From Pseudanabaena yagii GIHE-NHR1 (lineage in GTDB: Bacteria > Cyanobacteriota > Cyanobacteriia > Pseudanabaenales > Pseudanabaenaceae): 64,000 bases of DNA. The position numbers and the translations under genes are program-made. Position 1 is the stretch's first letter, and the number at the start of each line of letters is the position of its first letter. The DNA is taken from the NCBI RefSeq assembly GCF_012863495.1, contig NZ_JAAVJL010000002.1, positions 188,501-252,500 of the forward strand, in the 5' to 3' direction. The notes under the pieces are model-generated. The model saw only the letters and a program-made list of their open reading frames with translations, did no database searches and was not told where the DNA came from. Shown one piece after another: positions 37,007 through 47,023 of this stretch.

Positions 37007-37116
37007 ATGGCGAGAATGATACCTCAGACGCTTTCCGTAACAACTAAAAGCAATGCTGAGAAAAAATTATTTGCTATCCTAGAAAAAGAACTAGATAAAG
37101 ACTATGTAGTTTTTCA
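37007..37116 (+). pseudogene. NERD-helicase gene, fragment 1 of 3 (codons 1-36)
   Basis: Begins with ATG 37007 and reads MARMIPQTLSV, then a helix with KKLFAILEKEL and DYVVF, the usual N-terminus of a NERD nuclease domain. It is cut after agtttttca (37108-37116), which is duplicated at 39681-39689 beyond the inserted element. The frame runs into the element and stops. See the third fragment for the reconstructed protein. Confidence 0.85.
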
Positions 37117-37251
37117 CTTAGTACAGGACAAAAAGTTGCAAAAGTAGGCAGGGAGGGGTTTTATAAAAGATAACCACATCGTAAATAAAACCCCTATGAA
37201 AGAGATTAACCTATTCCGAGAAAAGTTGCAGCAACATCTGCAATGGAATCA

Positions 37252-38665
37252 GCAATTCTCATTATGAACGAAGGCTAGTCAAACCGTTGATATAGGGATA
37301 TTGTAAATAACATGATGATTGATTTAGGGGAAGAGCTTTGAAAGCACAAGGCTCATTCGACAGAATTGTAGAAATTTTCCGACAACAACTAGAATCATTG
37401 CCAGACAAGCGGACAGGCAAAAATAGTCGCTATGGCATGGAAGATGCAGCCATGAGTGCATTCAGTGTATTTTTCACTCAAAGTCCATCATTCTTGTCTT
37501 ACCAGCGGACAATGGAGCAGACAAAAGGGCGAAGCAACGCCCAAAGTTTATTTGGGGTGCATAAAATACCAACGGATAACCATATCCGAGACTTGCTAGA
37601 CCCAGTGCAACCTAAAGAAATGTTTCCAGTGTTCGAGACAATCTTGGAGACGATAGAGCAAAAGGGGAAACTGCAAGGATTTCGAGGATTCGCCAACAAT
37701 CTATTAATGGCGCTAGATGGGACAGAGTACTTTAGTTCAAAACAAATACACTGTCACCATTGTTCGAGTAGGAAAATGAAATCAGGAGAAATTCATTATT
37801 TTCATAGCGTAGTTACGCCAGTTATCGTCAGTCCACATCAATCGCAAGTGATTCCCCTAGTACCAGAATTTATTGTGCCGCAGGATGGAAATGACAAGCA
37901 AGACTGTGAGAATACAGCCGCCAAAAGATGGTTGTTACAACATGGCAGTAAGTACAGTGCATTCAAGGTAACTGTTTTGGGTGATGACCTTTATTCTCGC
38001 CAACCCTCTGCCAAATGCTATTAGAGCAACAGTTCAACTTCATCTTAGTCTGCCGCCCGAATCTCACCCCACTATCTATGAGCATATAGAAGGGATTGCT
38101 TTGCCAACGGTGGTTGTCAATAAGTGGACAGGGAAAGTTCAAGAGACCTATACCTACCAATATGTCAATGGGCTACCTATCAAAGATGGTGACGATGCTT
38201 TGCTGGTTAACTGGTGTGAACTAACTGTGACTAGACCTGATGGCAAGGTAGTTTACAAAAACTCTTTTGCCACCAATCACCTGATTACTGAGCAAACAGT
38301 GGTGGAAATCGTGCTGGCTGGTCGTACTCGTTGGAAAGTGGAAAATGAGAATAACAATACTCTCAAAACTAAGGGCTACAACCTAGAACACAACTTTGGA
38401 CATGGCAAGGAGCATCTTGCTTCATTCCTAGCCACCCTCAATATTTTGTCCCTACTATTTCACACGTTATTGGAATTGGTCGATGACAAGTACCAGTTAT
38501 TGCGCTCTCATTTGCCAACCCGCAAAACCTTTTTTAACGATTTACGCGCCTTGACTCGATATCTTGTTTTTGATAGTTGGGATCATCTTTTGACTTTTAT
38601 GATTCAAGGTTTGGAGTTAGATCTCCCTCCCAACAGTAGTTAATTTTTCATAATGAGAATTGCTG
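37252..38665 (+). mobile_element. Nested insertion sequence (IS-A), 1414 bp
   Basis: 19-bp perfect terminal inverted repeats (cagcaattctcattatgaa at 37252-37270, complement at 38647-38665). It is flanked by a 10-bp target duplication, gcaatggaat (37242-37251 and 38666-38675). It inserted into the transposase gene of IS-B, so it is the younger of the two. Confidence 0.92.
37338..38643 (+). pseudogene. Transposase of IS-A, twice frameshifted
   Basis: A DDE-type transposase of about 435 residues. The first part (from TTG 37338) has SRYGMEDAAMSAFSVFF and LLMALDGTEYFSS with the first Asp, and the last part has RTRWKVENENNNTLKTKGY with the Glu. Around 38010-38080 the expected reading moves through all three frames: SRQP in the first, CQMLLEQQFNFILVCRP in the second, ESHPTIYEH in the third. 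Two single-base losses within about 70 bases explain this. The protein cannot be made intact, so the element could move only with help from another copy. Confidence 0.85.
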
Positions 38666-39689
38666 GCAATGGAATAGAGCAAGACTAGCCTTTGTGTCCA
38701 TGTTCTTGATCGCGCTAATGCGAGTAAAGACAGTAAACCTAGCTGAAATTGCCACAGGATTTAGTGGTTATGCCAAAGTCGAATCACACTATAAGAGGTT
38801 ACAGAGATTTTTTCGAGACTTTGAAGTGGACTATGAAAAGATCGCACTCATGGTCGTCAAAGTCATGCAAATCCCCGAACCTTGGGTAATTTCTATCGAC
38901 CGCACCGATTGGGAATTCGGTAAAACCGTGTTTAATGTGCTGACATTGGGAATAGTGCATTACGGTATTGCATTCCCGTTGGTATGGATGATGCTGGACA
39001 AAAAAGGTAACTCAAACACCCGTGAGCGCTGTGAATTGTGTAATCGATTTCTGGAAATATTTGGAGACCGCAAAATCGACTTTTTGAGTGCAGACCGAGA
39101 GTTTGTCGGTGAGGATTGGTTAGATTACTTGTTGTGTGAACCATGTAACCGTTTTCGTATCCGCCGTAAAAATACTTTGCTCAATGACGGGCAGAAAAAA
39201 CTGCGTGCCGACATTTGTTTTCAAGACCTCCAAGTTGGTCAGTCCAAAGTATTGTCCAAGCCCAGAAAGGTTTGGAACCATTGGCTTCGTATAGCCGCTA
39301 TGCGTCTTGATGATGGCGATTTATTAATTGTCGCGACGACTCATGACCCTGATACGGCTATTGCTGACTATGCTAAGCGTTGGGCTATTGAGACTTTATT
39401 CGGGTGCTTTAAAACCCGTGGCTTTTGTTTGGAGTCCACTCATCTTCAAGATCCTGAACGTCTTTCCAAACTAATTGCTTTGCTTACTCTGGCTTTATGT
39501 TGGGCTTTTTCTTCTGGGCTTTGGTTGGCTCAACTAAATCCCCTCAAGCCTAAAAAACACGGTCGTCTTCCTAAAAGCATTTTTCGCCTTGGTTTTGATT
39601 TCCTTCGTCACATCATCTTTGACTTACATCTCAATTCTCAAGCCTTCTTTAACTCCATTAAATTTTTGTCCTGTACTTAGAGTTTTTCA

Positions 39690-40047
39690 TAGTGCATGGT
39701 GGCAAGCTGATAAGTACTATATACAAGAACGTGAAAGTGATTTTACTATAGTTCATCCAGAGAAAGGAATCCTATTATTAGAGGTAAAAGGAGGGAAAAT
39801 ATCTTATGACTCTATAAATAAATCTTGGTATCAAAATCAAGATAGGATGAAAAGGTCTCCATTTGATCAAGCTAGAGAAATTAGGTATTCATTTATAAAA
39901 TTTCTGAGTAGGTCTAGTAGTAACCTATCAAGAGCGTGTATTGGTCAATGCGCAGCTTTTCCTGATGTGGATGCTATAGAAAATGGATTGCCATCTGAAG
40001 CTCCTCGCAATATATTGCTATTGCGTCCTCAACTCAAAGATATTAAT
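39690..40047 (+). pseudogene. NERD-helicase gene, fragment 2 of 3 (codons 37-156)
   Basis: Holds the nuclease core: SDFTIVHPEKGILLLEVKGG with Asp54 and the E-x-K pair Glu68/Lys70 in reconstructed numbering, the metal-binding pattern of NERD and related restriction-endonuclease folds. It also contains RSPFDQAREI, typical of NERD domains. It ends at gatattaat (40039-40047), duplicated at 41360-41368 on the other side of the next element. Confidence 0.88.
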
Positions 40048-41359
40048 CTGATTGACTGACAAAAGTGGTAAGAGAAGTTGCGAGAAAGTATACAGAGATT
40101 GAATTTGAGTAAAAAAGAGGCGTATGCTGTTTTTTGAAGAAAAAGGAGCATAGGACAAATGACCCAAAACGCCTCACGTATCTATAATGAACTAATAAAA
40201 TTCGGGAGTCAATACAGCCAGTGGTCAGATGTGCGCCATTTGGGAGTAATGGCGTGGATGATGGTGGGAATGATCGCCACAGGGAGTGTGAATTTAACGA
40301 AGTGGTTAAGCCATATCAACACAAAAGCATTGATCGCCCAAAGCACGCAAAGACAACTATCAAGATGGCTGAACAATCCGCGCATAAATCCAGCTAAGCT
40401 ATACAGTCCAGTAATCAAAGAGTTAATCGCTAAATGGAAAGAGCCAGAAATATATCTGAGTTTTGATACCAGTCAACTGTGGGAAGAATACAGCATGATC
40501 CGATTGTGTGTAGTTCATCAGGGAAGAGCTTTACCGTTATGTTGGCGTGTAATCAAACATCGCAGTAGTAGTGTGGAGATGAGTAGCTATCAAGACATGC
40601 TCAAACGCGCATCGAAACTGTTGCCCGTGAATGTCAAAGTAGTTTTATTAGCAGACCGAGCATTTGCTAATCCAGAACTGGTGCGCTATGTGTGGGAATT
40701 AAAATGGCAATGTCGGATTCGGATCAAGGGTAATTTCTGGATATATGCCCCCAAGCATGGCTGGCAAACAGTCAAACAATTACATCTTCGTCTTGGTGAA
40801 GCTAAGTTGATCCACAATGTTAAAGTTCACAAAACTGAGTCCAAGCGTCTTACCGATGTGCATATTGCGGCGGCTTGGGAATCTGGGAGCCGAGAGTATT
40901 GGTATATTCTCAGTACTGAACCTACCACACTCCAAACTTTTTGGGAGTATGGTCTGAGATTCGATATTGAGGAGAATTTCTTGGATGATAAATCTAATGG
41001 CTTTGATTTAGAATCTTCGCGTTTACGTTCGGCTCCTGCCATTTCTCGCCTTTGTTTTGTGATAGCACTGACCACCTTGTTTTTAACGGCTCAAGGACTG
41101 GCGGTTGCTGATTCTGGCTATCGTCGTTTGGTTGATCCTCATTGGTTTCGTGGGCTTAGTTATCTCAAGATTGGCTGGAACTGGATTCACACCGCTATCA
41201 CTAAAAACTGGGCTTTCTTGCCTTTCTACTCTTTTACTTCTTATCTTGACTCTCACCCTGCTATTGCTTCTCGTCGAAAACATCTTCAGAAATTATTCCG
41301 CATTGAGTTCTATGCTTCTACTCTCGACTATGCTTCATAGACTTTTGTCAGTCAATCAG
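40048..41359 (+). mobile_element. IS4-type element (IS-C), 1312 bp, intact
   Basis: 19-bp perfect inverted repeats (ctgattgactgacaaaagt at 40048-40066, complement at 41341-41359) and a 9-bp target duplication gatattaat. It carries one uninterrupted transposase gene and broke the NERD-helicase gene between codons 156 and 157. Confidence 0.93.
40159..41340 (+). CDS. IS4-type transposase of IS-C
   Basis: 393 residues. Catalytic acids appear in YLSFDTSQLW, VVLLADRAFAN and RFDIEENFLDDKSNG, the last with the Glu of the DDE triad and the following Lys. The frame is complete and the element ends are intact, so it may be active. The stop codon tag (41338-41340) directly abuts the right terminal repeat. 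Confidence 0.92.
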   Translation: MTQNASRIYNELIKFGSQYSQWSDVRHLGVMAWMMVGMIATGSVNLTKWLSHINTKALIAQSTQRQLSRWLNNPRINPAKLYSPVIKELIAKWKEPEIYLSFDTSQLWEEYSMIRLCVVHQGRALPLCWRVIKHRSSSVEMSSYQDMLKRASKLLPVNVKVVLLADRAFANPELVRYVWELKWQCRIRIKGNFWIYAPKHGWQTVKQLHLRLGEAKLIHNVKVHKTESKRLTDVHIAAAWESGSREYWYILSTEPTTLQTFWEYGLRFDIEENFLDDKSNGFDLESSRLRSAPAISRLCFVIALTTLFLTAQGLAVADSGYRRLVDPHWFRGLSYLKIGWNWIHTAITKNWAFLPFYSFTSYLDSHPAIASRRKHLQKLFRIEFYASTLDYAS

Positions 41360-41368
41360 GATATTAAT

Positions 41369-42463
41369 AGACATATATCATCTATCTTTGATTACTATTC
41401 TTGCAGTGGAAATCACTTAAGGTTGGGAGAAAAGGGTGTAAATAGAATTATAGATTTGATTTCGCCGAAAACCAACTTCAAGAAGTATATTGGTAATGAT
41501 CTAAGCGAGATTCATCAAGAAATTCTCCGCTTAACTGAGCAGCAATTTGCGATATTAAATAGCCTGTATTTTCAATCTCAATGCACAATTTTAGGGTGTG
41601 CTGGATCAGGTAAAACACAATTAGCAATAGAAAAGACAAGGCAACTATCTCAACAAAATTATACAACTCTTATAACTTGTAAGTCTCTTAATTTAAGTCT
41701 TTATATTGCAGCTTCATTATCACAAGAAATCGAGTCAAATCATTGCGTAGTATCACATTATAGTAAAGTAATAGAAAATTATAACAACAGAAAATTTGAT
41801 GCTATTATTCTTGACGAAGGTCAAGATTTTGAGCGTAGTGAATTAGATCTTTTAAAGAAGCTCCTAACTGAAGAAGAAATATTTTACATATTTCAGGATA
41901 GCAATCAAAATATATCCAAAAAGGAAAATATTAGCAAGTATACACTTCAATTAAATCCTATGGCTTTAAACAAAAACTGTAGGAATACCAATCAAATATT
42001 TCATTATGCTAAGCCATTTGTATCTTGCTTACATCCTCTAGAAAGCTCATCAATTGATGGCAGGGATGTAGTTCAAAAAGTATATGATAGACCTTGTAAT
42101 CTTCTACTAATGATTGAGAAAGATATCTCTTTTTTGGTTAATGAAGAGAAAGTAAATTCCAATCAGATTATTATATTGACTGATATACATCCACTATCGA
42201 AGTCATTTTTAGCAAGTTTATCTAAAATTGGAAATTTCTCTTTAATAGAATATTCACTAAACAATAAAGAGAAGCAAAGTATTCAATATGAAAATATAGG
42301 AAGATATAAAGGGCTTGAAAATGACATTATTTTACTTGTTCTTGAAAAGCCTAAAACATTAGTTCCAAACAACTGGGATATTGCCAATAAATACATCGGA
42401 GCTACTAGAGCAAAAAGTTATTTAATTGTCTATGAAGCTCCTGATCCAGAAATTGACTTTTAA
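41369..42463 (+). pseudogene. NERD-helicase gene, fragment 3 of 3 (codons 157-520)
   Basis: Superfamily 1 helicase part: Walker A GCAGSGKT at 232-239, Walker B DEGQD at 305-309, motif V-like YKGLEND, and motif VI ATRAK at 501-505 of the reconstructed protein. The three pieces are 110, 358 and 1095 bases, 1563 together, exactly 521 codons including the stop, in one frame without an internal stop. NERD plus SF1 helicase proteins include antiphage nuclease-helicases such as Nhi. Here it is disrupted by two separate insertions and cannot make the full protein. An ATG inside this fragment might still give a helicase-only piece, but no ribosome-binding site is evident. Confidence 0.9.
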
Positions 42464-42473
42464 AATATGATTT

Positions 42474-44198
42474 TTATTGAAACAAAAAACTTTCAGATTC
42501 AATTGTTACTTCACTTTCCTCCAATATTTCTTCAAATGAAGGTAATTTAGGTGAACCTTTATAATACAGTGTCCCAATCTGATAAACAGCATTTTGTATA
42601 GGCTCTGGTATTGGACGATTTAAATTTATCGATATCAAATCTTGTAATAAATGATAATCTTGAAGAATTAAATAATAAGCGTAAATGCAATTTAGTTGCA
42701 AAGCTATGCAATTACTTCTTATTAACTCAGTTATACATAGAAGTAACCTCTCTTTTAATTTTTGTCTTGTTGACATCCTTTGTATATAAGTCAAAGCTCC
42801 CTTTCTTGGTTTTATAAGATTATGAATTATTCTAGTCTTAATAAATGTATGTATTTCAGTGTCGTCAAGCACTTTAAATAGGTATTTAAGACTAATTTTT
42901 TGAATATCATCATTATTTTCTAAAGATACAAATCTAACAAACAACCAAGCATATAATTTGGAATGCTTAGTATATTTTTTAGATAATTGATATAGCCACT
43001 CAATATGATAAATAAATAGTTTAGGGTCTATTTTTTTACCTAGAGGTATTTTGTGTAGAAATTCACCAAATTTCTTTGCTTTTTCTTCACTGTCTATTTC
43101 TTCAAGGCTAACAAATATATCTTTATCTGATACAGAAATTGATTTGTCTGGCAGTTCTTGCTCATATTCTGTACTTGAGTTTATTTCCCTAATTAAAACA
43201 CTTTTATCTATAATTTTTTCTTGCTGAGGATCAGAATCTTCCTCTTCTATGAATGGAATTGTTGATGTCCCCCCTTTTTTTGATTCTTTAATAAATTCAA
43301 TAATCTTTTCTTGAGCTTCTATTATTTTTGTTTTTGAAGCATTTAGATTTACTCCAATTTTTAAAAGAAACTCTTGCAATATTATTAATCCTTTTATCGC
43401 ATCACTTTTACTCTTTGTAAAAATACGAAAATCATCAACATATCTTCCAAAGTTTATTTTTTGGTTGAATAAGGCTTCATCAACTTCTTTAAGAAATAAA
43501 TTAGCAATGAATCCTTCTGCTTCATTGCCAATCGGTATCCCTTGACTATTATAAGTTTCGTTTAATTTACCATCTACGAAAGAGTAGTAACAAACTTTGA
43601 ATTTTAAGGTTTTAGCAAAAATCAATATGAATTGTGATTCTTTGGGTATGCTAAGTTGTTTTGAAATTGCCGAAACCAAATATTCATGAGATATAGAATC
43701 ATAGAAAGATGAGATATCAGTTTTCAGTAAACAGAAGCTATGATCGACTTGTTTTGTTTGCCAATCTGTAAACTCTTCAAACCCGTAGAAGTAGTATCTA
43801 TACAATCCTTCTTTAGATTTTTTGTCTTTATCTCTATTTCTCTCTAGTCTATGTGAAAAGCAGTTTTTTACTAGTGTAAAATCCAATAGATCAGCTAGAA
43901 TTATTACAATAATAAATTTTATTACTAAATCTTTAAAGGGGGTATGTATCATTCGCCTAAAGAACATTTCTGATTTAGGTAGATAGAAAGAAAATGCAGT
44001 TTCTGGTTCGTATACATTAGGATTTTCAAAAATAGACTTTATTTCTTCAAACAACTTTTCCTTATCTTGTCTATAGTAATCTATCTCTATAAAATTACAG
44101 TAGGAATCTTCCTTAATCCTATAATATATTGCATATACATATGCTTTGTCGAAAGTCTCTCTCTTTTTTATTAGTTCTAGGAGAAAGTGTTGATTCAT
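42474..44198 (-). CDS. Stand-alone reverse transcriptase with long helical C-terminus
   Basis: 574 residues. RT motifs are complete: RRMIHTPFKDLVI (81-93), motif A LKTDISSFYDSI (158-169, Asp161), QGIPIGNEAEGFIANLFL (219-236), catalytic YVDD (253-256) and LNASKTK (286-292). After about residue 300 there is an acidic, low-complexity stretch and then roughly 200 residues of predicted helices. No maturase or endonuclease domain and no intron boundaries are seen, and the palm pattern is unlike group II intron enzymes. It resembles the UG/Abi class of defence-related RTs, but the subgroup cannot be told. It is AT-rich, in an IS-laden island, 10 bases tail to tail from the NERD-helicase remnant. Confidence 0.88.
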   Translation of the reverse strand: MNQHFLLELIKKRETFDKAYVYAIYYRIKEDSYCNFIEIDYYRQDKEKLFEEIKSIFENPNVYEPETAFSFYLPKSEMFFRRMIHTPFKDLVIKFIIVIILADLLDFTLVKNCFSHRLERNRDKDKKSKEGLYRYYFYGFEEFTDWQTKQVDHSFCLLKTDISSFYDSISHEYLVSAISKQLSIPKESQFILIFAKTLKFKVCYYSFVDGKLNETYNSQGIPIGNEAEGFIANLFLKEVDEALFNQKINFGRYVDDFRIFTKSKSDAIKGLIILQEFLLKIGVNLNASKTKIIEAQEKIIEFIKESKKGGTSTIPFIEEEDSDPQQEKIIDKSVLIREINSSTEYEQELPDKSISVSDKDIFVSLEEIDSEEKAKKFGEFLHKIPLGKKIDPKLFIYHIEWLYQLSKKYTKHSKLYAWLFVRFVSLENNDDIQKISLKYLFKVLDDTEIHTFIKTRIIHNLIKPRKGALTYIQRMSTRQKLKERLLLCITELIRSNCIALQLNCIYAYYLILQDYHLLQDLISINLNRPIPEPIQNAVYQIGTLYYKGSPKLPSFEEILEESEVTIESESFLFQ

Positions 44199-44199
44199 T

Positions 44200-44457
44200 G
44201 TGCTTATCTATTTGATTGATCTAAAATATAATAATATAAATCAGTGTAGTATAAATTGCCCAATGCAATTTGGAGCAAACTATCCCAAAATAATATGCTG
44301 CAAAATTGAGATTTTTAGTCAGTCTGAATTGTTTTCTTTACATGATCAACTGAAATTAACTGCTTTACCAGACTTACGCTCAAAGTATGAATATGAAATA
44401 GTCGAACAAGCTCAAGCTACGGGGCATAAAGCTCTGAAAGCAGCTGTAGTTAAATAA
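44200..44457 (+). other. Open frame ending in the repeated tail
   Basis: Directly divergent from the reverse transcriptase. The 3' part (from about 44345) encodes LKLTALPDLRSKYEYEIVEQ and ends GHKALKAAVVK, the same peptide encoded by the repeat copies at 45.97 and 46.70 kb. The 5' part looks non-coding. It is most likely the remnant of the end of a lost gene rather than a real small gene; it also holds the RT promoter region. Confidence 0.35.
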
Positions 44458-44502
44458 TTGTATGATATGGCGATCGCTAATCTATACCACTACTTGCAAT
44501 AA
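44425..44502 (+). repeat. Island repeat, copy 1
   Basis: First of four same-direction copies of a ~75-bp sequence with core gtagttaaac, gtctgatatggcgatcgcta and accactact. It is followed by the VapBC-like pair. Confidence 0.75.
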
Positions 44503-44529
44503 TTTATTTGTCAAACCACTAAAAAAACT

Positions 44530-44769
44530 ATGCAAACACTACCTAAAATCGAAGAAACATTAATTGCAGTCATCAAAGCCTTACCAATCGAAAAACAGCA
44601 AGCACTATTAGAATTTGCCGAATTTTTGCAAGCCAAAACATCACCTAAATCCCCAAGCAAAAGTATCAAAGGCTTATGGGCAAATGCAGATATTAACCTC
44701 ACCGAAGAAGAACTCGCTGCAACTAGAAAAGAAATGTGGGCAACCTTCCCCAAGGACATTGAATTATGA
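44530..44769 (+). CDS. VapB-like antitoxin (DUF2281-type)
   Basis: 79 residues: a helical N-terminus ALPIEKQQALLEFAEFLQAK typical of DUF2281/VapB-like antitoxins, then a basic linker and a toxin-binding C-terminus GLWANADINLTEEELAATR. Its stop overlaps the toxin's ATG by 4 bases (atga), the normal antitoxin-toxin coupling. Confidence 0.85.
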   Translation: MQTLPKIEETLIAVIKALPIEKQQALLEFAEFLQAKTSPKSPSKSIKGLWANADINLTEEELAATRKEMWATFPKDIEL

Positions 44770-45167
44770 GCGTTGTAGCTGACACCCACACAATCATTTG
44801 GTACTTGCGAAGTCCTGAAAAGTTATCAACAAATGCAGTGAACGCTGTTGATAATGCCTTGAACAATGGCGAATCAATTTTTATATCTGCGATTTCTCTT
44901 GTGGAAATAAATTATTTAGTTGAGAAAAATCGGATTCCCACCAGTTCGTTAGAGCAACTTTTACAACTCATAGACGATCCACTTGTAAAATTAGTTGTTG
45001 TTCCACTGGATACCCCAGTAGCTAAAGCTTTTACTCAAATCTCCCGTAAAATTGTCCCAGAAATGGGCGATCGCATTATCGCAGCAACTGCTCTATATCT
45101 TGGTCTGCCTCTAGTTACCAAAGACCATAAAATCAGTAACTTATCCAATATTCAGATAGTTTGGTAG
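44766..45167 (+). CDS. vapC: VapC-type PIN-domain toxin
   Basis: 133 residues. The PIN acidic residues are in SVVADTHTIIWYL (Asp6), the Glu of SLVEINYL, and MGDRIIAATA with the third and fourth acids, followed by LVTKDHKI. Such toxins cleave tRNA or rRNA when freed from antitoxin. It pairs with the preceding antitoxin and is bounded by repeat copies 1 and 2. Confidence 0.92.
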   Translation: MSVVADTHTIIWYLRSPEKLSTNAVNAVDNALNNGESIFISAISLVEINYLVEKNRIPTSSLEQLLQLIDDPLVKLVVVPLDTPVAKAFTQISRKIVPEMGDRIIAATALYLGLPLVTKDHKISNLSNIQIVW

Positions 45168-45235
45168 ATTTAAAAGCAGATGTAGTTAACCAATCGTCTG
45201 ATGTGGCGATTATTTTACCTACTCACAACCTGAGT
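45168..45235 (+). repeat. Island repeat, copy 2
   Basis: Shorter and more diverged copy with gcagatgtagttaacc and gtctgatgtggcgat. It lies between the VapC stop and the 3' end of the HigA-like gene. Confidence 0.65.
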
Positions 45236-45544
45236 ACGAGCCTGAGAACGAGATTTAGGCTTATCTTTCACCACAATCTCCACATCACGACCTAGAGAAT
45301 TTAAAAACCTAAACAACCTCACAGTCGAGAAACCTGATAACTTGCCATTGATCAAAGCCGACATCTTAGGCTGATCGATCCCCAATAGTTTAGCCGCTTC
45401 AACTTGAGTAATTCCTAATTTAGTAATGATACTGCTAATTTTGTAAGCAAGTTCTGCTTTGACCAGCAACTCATCAGAATTCTCTAATCCCAAATCCGCA
45501 AAAACATTACCACTACTTTTTTGCACCTTAATCTCTTCAGTCAT
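45215..45544 (-). CDS. HigA-like XRE antitoxin
   Basis: 109 residues with a helix-turn-helix in GITQVEAAKLLGIDQPKMSALINGKL, then FSTVRLFRFLNSLGRDVEIVV as in HigA-type antitoxins of reversed-order modules. It follows the toxin gene by 13 bases. Its C-terminal two thirds are duplicated at 46799-47003 at very high identity. Confidence 0.88.
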   Translation of the reverse strand: MTEEIKVQKSSGNVFADLGLENSDELLVKAELAYKISSIITKLGITQVEAAKLLGIDQPKMSALINGKLSGFSTVRLFRFLNSLGRDVEIVVKDKPKSRSQARTQVVSR

Positions 45545-45557
45545 TTAAAACCTCCAT

Positions 45558-45932
45558 TTACTTTTTCTTGTTGTAATGCTCAGCATAGTGTTCTTTAGCC
45601 CGTTTTAGTCTTGCTTCAATCAAATCGATATCTTGCTTTGGAGTAGCAATGCCCTGTTTCGATTTCTTTTGAAAGGAATGCAAAACATAAACAACATCAG
45701 CAAATTTGATCGTATAGACTGCCCGATAAGTGTCTCCATCAAAATCTTCTACCACTTCCACAACGCCAGCACCTTTAAAACCTTTAAGTGGCTTAGCAGA
45801 AGGATGTTTATCTCCACATTGAGCGATGTACAAAGCATAACCCACAACTTGCTGAACCTCGTCTGGGAAATCTTTTAAATCATCTAGCGAACTCCCAATC
45901 CACTCAACAGGTTTCAACGGTAAAATACTCAC
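45558..45932 (-). CDS. HigB/RelE-like toxin (phage Gp49-type)
   Basis: 124 residues: PVEWIGSSLDDLKDFP, then RAVYTIKFADVVYVLHSFQKKSKQGIATP, the core of the Gp49/HigB-like ribonuclease toxins that cut mRNA on the ribosome. Toxin first, antitoxin second is the usual order in this subfamily. GTG start at 45932. Bounded by repeat copies 2 and 3. Confidence 0.9.
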   Translation of the reverse strand: MSILPLKPVEWIGSSLDDLKDFPDEVQQVVGYALYIAQCGDKHPSAKPLKGFKGAGVVEVVEDFDGDTYRAVYTIKFADVVYVLHSFQKKSKQGIATPKQDIDLIEARLKRAKEHYAEHYNKKK

Positions 45933-45972
45933 ATTACAAATATGCCAATACTAGCATATCGCATAAAATTAA

Positions 45973-46056
45973 TATTGTGGCATAAAGCTTTAAAGGCAGA
46001 GGTAGTTAAACAATTGTCTGATATGGCGATCGCTAATTTTTATCATTACTTGCGAT
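45973..46056 (+). repeat. Island repeat, copy 3
   Basis: The best-preserved copy. It reads as HKALKAEVVKQLSDMAIAN and stays open to a stop at 46086-46088, so the repeat may descend from the 3' end of a coding sequence. Confidence 0.75.
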
Positions 46057-46144
46057 TTCCTCAAGAAAAGCGATCGCATCTTGAATGACCATCACAACAC
46101 TTGGTTAATCAGAAGAAATTACTTGATCAAAATAATTCCTAAAA

Positions 46145-46378
46145 CTATTGCACGACATTTCTTAAGTTAATCTCTAATTCTTGCCGTAAAGCTAGATAAT
46201 GACGGTAATTACTCGCCCAATCAAACCTCTCTTCATCATCATCCGTCTCACCTTGTTGATACTGCACAAAAAAGTCAGCCGAATCAGTTTGGTATTTAAT
46301 CTCATAACCGTATAACTGCTTAGTCAAAGCTACTAAAGCATCTAGAGGCGATGTATATTCAGTAATCTGTTTACGCAT
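46145..46378 (-). CDS. Small acidic protein, TumA-like antitoxin candidate
   Basis: 77 residues: YTSPLDALVALTKQLYGYE, an acidic middle, and SNYRHYLALRQELEINLRNV at the end. The pattern recalls TumA antitoxins of TumE-TumA modules in cyanobacteria, but no TumE-like toxin is next to it. It lies 40 bases downstream of a ParD-like antitoxin, in the place where ParE would be expected. Function by resemblance only. Confidence 0.55.
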   Translation of the reverse strand: MRKQITEYTSPLDALVALTKQLYGYEIKYQTDSADFFVQYQQGETDDDEERFDWASNYRHYLALRQELEINLRNVVQ

Positions 46379-46418
46379 GATAATAATCGAATTTATTCTT
46401 TATGTATTTGAGAAACTT

Positions 46419-46667
46419 CTACATACGAACCTGTTCTTTTAATCTTGCTATCACACTCTCACCATCCAGCCCTTCACCCCGATCTAGTTGAGCTAGACCA
46501 TCAGCAACCTTTTGGCGAGTATCTTGCAGCCATTGCTCATAATGTTTATCTCTTTCCTCAAGCAACCGAAACGCCTCAAAAATCACCTCATCAGCAGAGC
46601 TATACTTACCACTTTTCAGCTTTTTTTGAATAAACTGCTCTTGCTCAATTTTTAAGGCAATACTCAT
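46419..46667 (-). CDS. ParD-type antitoxin, orphan
   Basis: 82 residues from ATG 46667, with agga about 8 bases upstream; an ATG at 46676 is also in frame. MSIALKIEQEQFIQKKLKSG and YSSADEVIFEAFRLLEER are the ribbon-helix-helix of ParD/CC2985 antitoxins, followed by the toxin-wrapping tail. No ParE toxin follows, which is unusual; its place is taken by the TumA-like gene. Confidence 0.88.
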   Translation of the reverse strand: MSIALKIEQEQFIQKKLKSGKYSSADEVIFEAFRLLEERDKHYEQWLQDTRQKVADGLAQLDRGEGLDGESVIARLKEQVRM

Positions 46668-46703
46668 GATTTGCATCCTAAGTCATATAATTATCAGCAA
46701 TTA

Positions 46704-46786
46704 TAGCAAAAGCTTTAAAATCAGATGTAGTAAAATGATCGTCTGACATGGCGATCGCTAATTTATACCACTACTTTCAATAAGCG
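46704..46786 (+). repeat. Island repeat, copy 4
   Basis: Copy with tcagatgtagtaaaatgatc, gtctgacatggcgatcgcta and accactact, shortly before the 3' end of the truncated higA copy. Confidence 0.72.
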
Positions 46787-46798
46787 AAACAAAGTAAC

Positions 46799-47023
46799 TT
46801 ATCCACTCACCACCTGAGTACGAGCCTGAGTAAGAGATTTAGGCTTATCTTTCACCACAATCTCCACATCACGACCTAGAGAATTTAAAAACCTAAATAA
46901 CCTCACAGTCGAGAAGCCTGACAACTTGCCATTGATCAAAGCCGACATCTTATGCTGATCGATTCCCAATAGTTGAGCCGATTCAACTTGAGTAATTCCT
47001 AAATTGAGAGGTCGTTGTTGCAT
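46799..47023 (-). pseudogene. Truncated duplicate of the HigA-like gene
   Basis: From 46803 to about 47003 it matches the gene at 45215 with few changes (for example KPKSLTQ for KPKSRSQ), then similarity stops abruptly inside GITQVES. The first 25 residues of the real gene are missing and are replaced by unrelated bases (MQQRPLNL). The HTH keeps H for P in IDQHKMS. No toxin accompanies it. It might still make a 74-residue protein, but is most likely a relic. Confidence 0.85.

Follow-up and report, generated by a model that had tools for sequence, protein, structure and literature searches.

The reverse transcriptase gene

The window (the whole 64-kb stretch of Pseudanabaena yagii DNA analyzed here) carries on its reverse strand, at 42474..44198, an intact single open frame of 574 amino acids for a UG34-type reverse transcriptase (RT). 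Its product matches the PADLOC RT_UG34 model over the full length (1-511 of 512; 6.8e-199) with 660 bits, where the next model scores 128, and Pfam RVT_1 over residues 148-296 (2.4e-17). The catalytic motifs are intact: motif A, a TDIS at residues 160-163 (43710..43721, reverse strand, coordinates computed from the ORF), contains D161, and the YVDD at residues 253-256 (43431..43442, reverse strand) contains D255 and D256, all three aspartates being invariant in 11 of 11 aligned RTs. More divergent members of the group, described below, also score best on the UG34 model (608.7, 594.5, 596.2, 533.2, 479.1 and 478.7 bits). These model scores place the window RT, with very little room for doubt, in group UG34 of the UG/Abi (DRT) lineage, in agreement with the preliminary description, which had proposed an RT of UG/Abi type with intact motifs, YVDD included.

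The same description had taken the enzyme to be of a non-intron type, and this also holds. No maturase or endonuclease domain was found in it by Pfam; the NCBIfam group II maturase model gives 81.7 bits against a cut-off of 300, the St85-family retron RT model 36.9 against 235, and other retron RT models have no match at E <= 1. At the gathering score, Rfam matches nothing in the window but a tRNA, and thus there is no intron, retron or other Rfam RNA element in it.

In its 5.57-Mb host genome, the RT matches only itself (E <= 0.001). A first draw of relatives comprised 97 genomes, including its own and 25 of the same genus (E <= 0.001); only its own exceeded 93 bits on the UG34 model, and the gene therefore looks horizontally acquired. 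By tblastn, only distant RTs were hit, in 218 plasmid records (none at 80% query coverage, all below 60% identity) and in eight phage records (all below 60% identity), and two scans of viral contigs found no UG34. In the collections searched, the cassette is not seen to be carried by phages or plasmids.

A GGCGAT-containing repeat lies within 44423-46781, with 78-nt copies at 44423, 45979 and 46704 and a 45-nt copy at 45166, between small genes of toxin-antitoxin type: by Pfam, DUF2281 and PIN genes (44530-45167), HTH_37 and Gp49-like genes (45215-45932), and a ParD-like gene (46419-46676). A 207-nt piece of the HTH_37 gene (45215-45421) is duplicated at 46799-47005 with 94% identity; the ORF list holds no accompanying toxin-like frame of at least 60 amino acids for this second copy.

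The broken NERD-helicase

Facing the RT, tail to tail, is a gene for a NERD nuclease-helicase, whose stop is separated from the end of the RT by 10 nt (42464..42473). It lies on the forward strand in three pieces, all matching the PADLOC RTasNERD-Hel model and together covering it: the N-terminus (37007..37116, profile positions 1-37), the NERD nuclease (39682..40047, profile 34-157, also matched by Pfam), and the helicase (41360..42463, profile 153-519). None of the three contains an internal stop. Two forward-strand insertions separate them, each flanked by terminal inverted repeats. Insertion A (37117..39680) carries an IS4-family transposase (38694-39680) scoring above its NCBIfam cut-off, and is bounded by the 9-bp duplication AGTTTTTCA at 37108-37116 and 39681-39689. 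Nested in it is a presumed second IS on the same strand (37250..38665), with two frames that matched no Pfam family, perfect 19-nt inverted repeats, and the 10-bp duplication GCAATGGAAT at 37240-37249 and 38666-38675. Insertion B (40048..41359) carries an IS4-like transposase (40159-41340) that misses both its cut-offs (22.2 against 23, and 130.9 against 152), and is bounded by the 9-bp duplication GATATTAAT at 40039-40047 and 41360-41368. The preliminary description of an open RT 10 bases from a ruined, inactivated nuclease-helicase is thus accurate.

Insertion B has 13 full-length copies of 99-100% identity in its own genome (itself included), eight of them at the top score. This suggests recent IS activity, and since the copies are nearly identical, the break that insertion B made in the helicase is probably recent as well. 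The RT-helicase pair in this genome is probably defunct, and the RT, without its partner, is probably idle or residual rather than an active defense.

Distribution of UG34 loci and their partners

UG34 RTs were sought in several overlapping sets of genomes, covering at most 860 overall. At E <= 1e-40, 386 genomes of the phylum gave four matches, one of them a fragment. At E <= 1e-38, 217 genomes of the family of G155 gave seven, 291 of the order of G404 gave eight, 61 of the family of G404 gave six, 27 of the family of G750 gave one, and 14 of the family of G736 gave one. A scan of a contig collection yielded six loci: four already counted, one in a Crocosphaera MAG (L046), and a Bacteroidetes match (L047, 28% identity over 109 residues) that was dropped as a different RT. 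Altogether, UG34 is present in 17 distinct cyanobacterial genomes and the Crocosphaera MAG, making 18 loci.

A convergent NERD-helicase, whole or as a remnant, accompanies the RT in 15 of the 18, and a convergent dGTPase in two (G736 and G750). Both RT and helicase are whole in seven loci (G155, G404, G466, G499, G534, G614, G790). The RT is whole and the helicase broken in three: the window, by IS elements; G832, by an in-frame stop at codon 29 of the helicase; and G490, where what is left of the helicase is a C-terminal remnant, adjoined at the contig end by an IS630-like transposase frame (DDE_3, 83.6 bits). Both genes are reduced in three (G776, G202, Crocosphaera). Contig ends cut the remaining loci: in G825 the helicase is whole; in G846 it is partial and the RT has one in-frame stop; in G610 the contig ends inside the RT, and the partner side is absent from it. 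G490 also has a gene for a DEDDh 3'-5' exonuclease (L063:714-1391, reverse strand) directly behind the RT and in the same direction, before the convergent-helicase remnant.

The junction between RT and helicase is 10 nt in seven loci (the window, L039, L040, L059, L060, L069, L078), 26 nt in L066 and 25 nt in L079, with a 4-nt overlap in L061 and L062 (whole junctions). The convergent NERD-helicase pair recurs in cyanobacteria. The preliminary description had suggested a former two-part system, a suggestion that a neighbor peculiar to this one genome would have spoken against; the RT being UG34, the ruined gene PADLOC's RTasNERD-Hel, and the convergent pair recurrent in other cyanobacteria, that objection falls away and the suggestion is borne out.

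The two genes have also diverged in step. Across eight pairs (the seven whole ones plus the one with the G832 stop), RT and helicase identities are correlated with a Mantel r of 0.992, none of 4080 sampled permutations being as high, with a sub-lineage contrast accounting for much of the correlation. Nine aligned helicases share without exception the NERD-domain E-x-K (E68, K70), the Walker A residues and the DExQ; no convincing solved relative of the helicase was found by sequence. When the same order was searched with RTasNERD-Hel, scoring at most four candidates per genome, 12 of 291 genomes had matches at E <= 1e-25. All four full-length matches that score over 680 bits (G825, G404, G155, G790) are beside a UG34 RT, and G776 and G202 have helicase remnants beside RT remnants. 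There is no UG34 RT near the truncated gene of G823 (441.5 bits) or near the complete, distant NERD-helicases of G646 and G251 (328.1 and 323 bits; L093:385-2025 and L094:5116-6756, both forward strand). G810, G223 and G750 have weaker, partial matches; that of G750 (an 830-aa frame, 148.6 bits) is on a different contig from its RT and was left uncounted as a partner. Since the full-length, high-scoring helicases all stand beside a UG34 RT and the distant ones alone, the close lineage of helicases accompanies the RT, while relatives of the helicase also occur by themselves.

A dGTPase in the place of the helicase

In G736 and G750, the convergent gene encodes a dGTPase, whose scores (446.3 and 486.7) exceed the NCBIfam PRK01096 cut-off of 439. 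The two enzymes are 54% identical to each other, and sit at a similar junction (an 8-nt gap in L065, a 4-nt overlap in L067). Both partner RTs have YNDD in place of YVDD, a replacement of V254 by N. Passing PRK01096 makes these enzymes resemble the E. coli-type dGTPases, and the one in L067 resembles structures 3bg2 and 7tu0 and, more distantly, 4x9e; they differ from the anti-phage dGTPases in falling below the cut-off of that NCBIfam model (212.7 and 237.8 against 400). PADLOC 2.0.0 matched them only to its general dGTPase model.

Among 19 chosen genomes, close matches to the G750 dGTPase were found only in G736 and G750 themselves; the remaining five, one of them a second gene in G750, were partial and 36-38% identical. 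Six other genomes of the genus of G736 had no match to it. Because close matches are confined to the two UG34 genomes, the enzyme is linked to the UG34 RT rather than being a common gene there, on the evidence of two loci only. Directly upstream of the RT in G736 are two overlapping genes (L065:9657-11476, reverse strand) for proteins of 291 and 317 amino acids, which have no family match in Pfam, PADLOC or NCBIfam at the thresholds applied.

The exchange of NERD-helicase for dGTPase at the tail-to-tail position is the most interesting point of this locus family. No print report of it was found in the literature searched, the UG/Abi survey lying outside its scope.

Predicted structure of the UG34 RT

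An AlphaFold2 model built on 11 UG34 sequences has a pLDDT of 77.4 and a pTM of 0.78. The C-terminal part of the protein had been described from the letters as acidic and then helical, and the prediction has the same layout: an acidic, low-confidence linker at about residues 309-364 is followed by helices over 371-546. Residues 366-574 (42474..43103, reverse strand), folded alone (pLDDT 86.5), form a confidently predicted, entirely helical alpha-solenoid with a disordered acidic tail.

Over the RT domain, the highest-ranking folds are group II and DGR RT structures. Of the 50 structures that VIA lists for the complete model, only four have more than 300 aligned residues, and these are DRT6 (9wy8; Z 15.6, 401 residues, 6.9 A), DRT4 twice (9vdv, Z 15.3, 409 residues, 5.7 A; 9vdo, Z 14.8, 386 residues, 4.9 A) and AbiA (8oz7; Z 15.2, 358 residues, 5.5 A), with sequence identity of only 12-14% over the structural alignments. 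AbiK and AbiP2 are in the Foldseek list of the model, and absent from these 50. Alignments with DRT2 (9c0i) and DRT9 (9vma, 9nlv, 9ioa) stop at residues 309-317 of the model. With the C-terminus alone, the best of the 50 structures listed are a designed helical repeat (Z 11.5), a phosphatase-complex chain (11.3), the symplekin HEAT domain (11.1) and importin ARM repeats (about 10), with no class 1 RT among them, and Foldseek has no match at E <= 0.001; scores near 11 may reflect only a common helical arrangement. The model predicts a helical solenoid, which may correspond to that of the class 1 DRTs. Three tyrosines, Y22, Y471 and Y506, are invariant in the 11 UG34 sequences, as candidates only for a priming residue.

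Search for an associated RNA

Upstream regions were aligned and pairs compared with 40 mononucleotide shuffles each. On the RT side, the upstream sequence is clearly conserved within the close pairs L039/L059 and L040/L078. With these two left out, the 26 pairs of core cassettes gave 78 comparisons beyond the first 50 nt, five of them with z >= 2 (highest 3.2) and the other 73 not above shuffles; within the first 50 nt, four pairs reached z 2.7-3.9. None of 45 upstream comparisons among the six divergent cassettes rose above shuffles. On the helicase side, upstream conservation is found in L039/L059, L040/L069 and L060/L061 (to 100 nt). At the 3' junction of the cassette there is no space between the genes, and the RT is only 2, 87 and 106 nt from the upstream gene in L065, L067 and L062. 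A conserved 5' ncRNA was therefore rejected as unsupported, with little upstream conservation between sites and no Rfam match, in a search that would miss an RNA conserved only in structure or encoded in trans. The stretch from 44199 on, originally put forward as a source of template RNA, has no clear conservation with the other loci and so is a poor candidate.

Relation to known systems

Since the helicase is PADLOC's RTasNERD-Hel, the pairing of UG34 RT and NERD-helicase is already catalogued, and the window matches that entry in having a full-length RT and helicase pieces that cover the model; it differs in that IS elements interrupt the helicase gene. RT_UG34 with RTasNERD-Hel was reportedly listed as a candidate DRT in the 2022 UG/Abi survey by Mestre et al. 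The tail-to-tail geometry and the dGTPase alternative are described here. No experimental paper on UG34, and no paper on its pairing with a NERD-helicase or a dGTPase, was found in a search outside of which most subscription journals lie; UG34 is not named in the available portions of PMC8934634 or PMC12632851, and the available text of PMC12489045 has dGTPase only in one reference entry (twice). UG34 is best regarded as a rare, catalogued candidate DRT group with a putative antiphage role.

In the accessible parts of recent accounts, class 1 UG/Abi RTs join the RT domain to HEAT-like repeats (alphaRep) and synthesize DNA without a template (PMC13174585), class 2 enzymes use an ncRNA, and class 3 enzymes have a nitrilase or phosphohydrolase (PMC13174585, PMC12489045, PMC13275509). 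UG34 may resemble the class 1 DRTs (DRT4, DRT6, AbiA, AbiK, AbiP2) in combining an RT with a helical-repeat C-terminus, a predicted one in its case; with DRT4, DRT6 and AbiA, the structural alignment of the model extends over both parts. It differs in having a convergent enzymatic partner, whereas DRT4 and DRT6 are single-gene systems in the available text of PMC13213688. There is a likeness to class 3 too, in the association with a phosphohydrolase (PMC12489045, as far as its accessible text goes), the two UG34-locus dGTPases being HD-domain enzymes; in UG34, however, the dGTPase is a separate convergent gene, and the dGTPase-paired RTs score only 50.1 and 49.5 bits on the Drt1a model, against 596.2 and 533.2 on UG34.

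Possible mechanisms

Our preferred reading is that the UG34 RT acts like the class 1 DRTs (AbiK, AbiA, DRT4, DRT6): its helical solenoid would mediate assembly, and phage infection would set off protein-primed DNA synthesis with no nucleic acid as template. This DNA would then be acted on by, or would switch, the partner enzyme from the opposite strand, which in most loci is a NERD nuclease-helicase and in a sub-lineage a dGTPase. That the RT works in this way, with the partner sensing or processing its DNA, is a tentative proposal, based on likeness to characterized relatives and in our estimate falling just short of an even chance. The account taken whole, in which the window holds the UG34 half of a convergent cassette whose partner has been destroyed and whose action was class 1-like, seems to us evenly poised between right and wrong. 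A bolder and unlikely form makes UG34 a generator of a DNA signal with exchangeable effectors: infection would lead to protein-linked, untemplated DNA, which would switch on the tail-to-tail NERD nuclease-helicase or dGTPase, the latter then destroying dNTPs and so ending both replication and the RT's own synthesis.

An alternative that we rate equally improbable is that the NERD-helicase is a safety device, degrading the RT's DNA until a phage blocks the helicase, a role that host nucleases play for DRT3 and DRT4. In the absence of RecBCD, DRT3 is toxic (PMC13174585), and exonuclease can attack the DRT4 product as long as no phage protein shields its end (PMC13213688), according to the available portions of both papers, and the DEDDh exonuclease gene beside the RT of G490 would fit the same pattern. 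A toxic RT left unguarded should be the first to go, however, and in the window, G490 and G832 it stays open beside a broken helicase. This speaks mildly against the helicase as an essential antitoxin; the counterargument is a weak one, with only three cases, an RT stop in G846, where the contig ends within the helicase, and both genes reduced in three further loci.

Somewhat more doubtful is a class 2-like RT, copying an ncRNA that is encoded elsewhere, overlaps a gene or is conserved only in structure. The PADLOC models nearest after UG34 (UG21, UG9, Drt8, UG19) and the five core comparisons with raised z may point that way, and the class 2 DRTs examined to date rely on ncRNAs in cis, in the accessible text of PMC13174585; 73 of the 78 core and all 45 divergent comparisons are at shuffle level, intergenic room is lacking at the 3' junction and scant upstream in three loci, and the predicted solenoid C-terminus also tells against it.

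About as doubtful is the idea that the RT is a complete single-gene defense, as DRT4 and DRT6 are listed to be in the available text of PMC13213688, and its convergent neighbor an independent hitch-hiker. The intact RT beside a broken helicase here, and related NERD-helicases with no UG34 RT nearby (G646, G251), speak for it; the matched divergence of the pair, the near-constant junction and the presence of two unrelated partner types at the same position speak against it. Finally, it is very improbable that the RT belongs to a group II intron, a retron or a DGR and has lost its RNA element: group II and DGR structures do lead the fold list over the RT domain, but the UG34 model is ahead by more than 500 bits (making even a DGR identity unlikely), the group II maturase score is far below its cut-off, and maturase or endonuclease domains and intron RNA were not found.

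Significance

The tail-to-tail geometry and the exchange of NERD-helicase and dGTPase lift the locus above the routine. With two alternative partners in a fixed tail-to-tail position, the UG34 cassette offers a clean genetic system, in which deleting or swapping the partner can ask how the DNA product of a DRT becomes an antiviral act. The dGTPase link, if true, would tie untemplated DNA synthesis to dNTP depletion.
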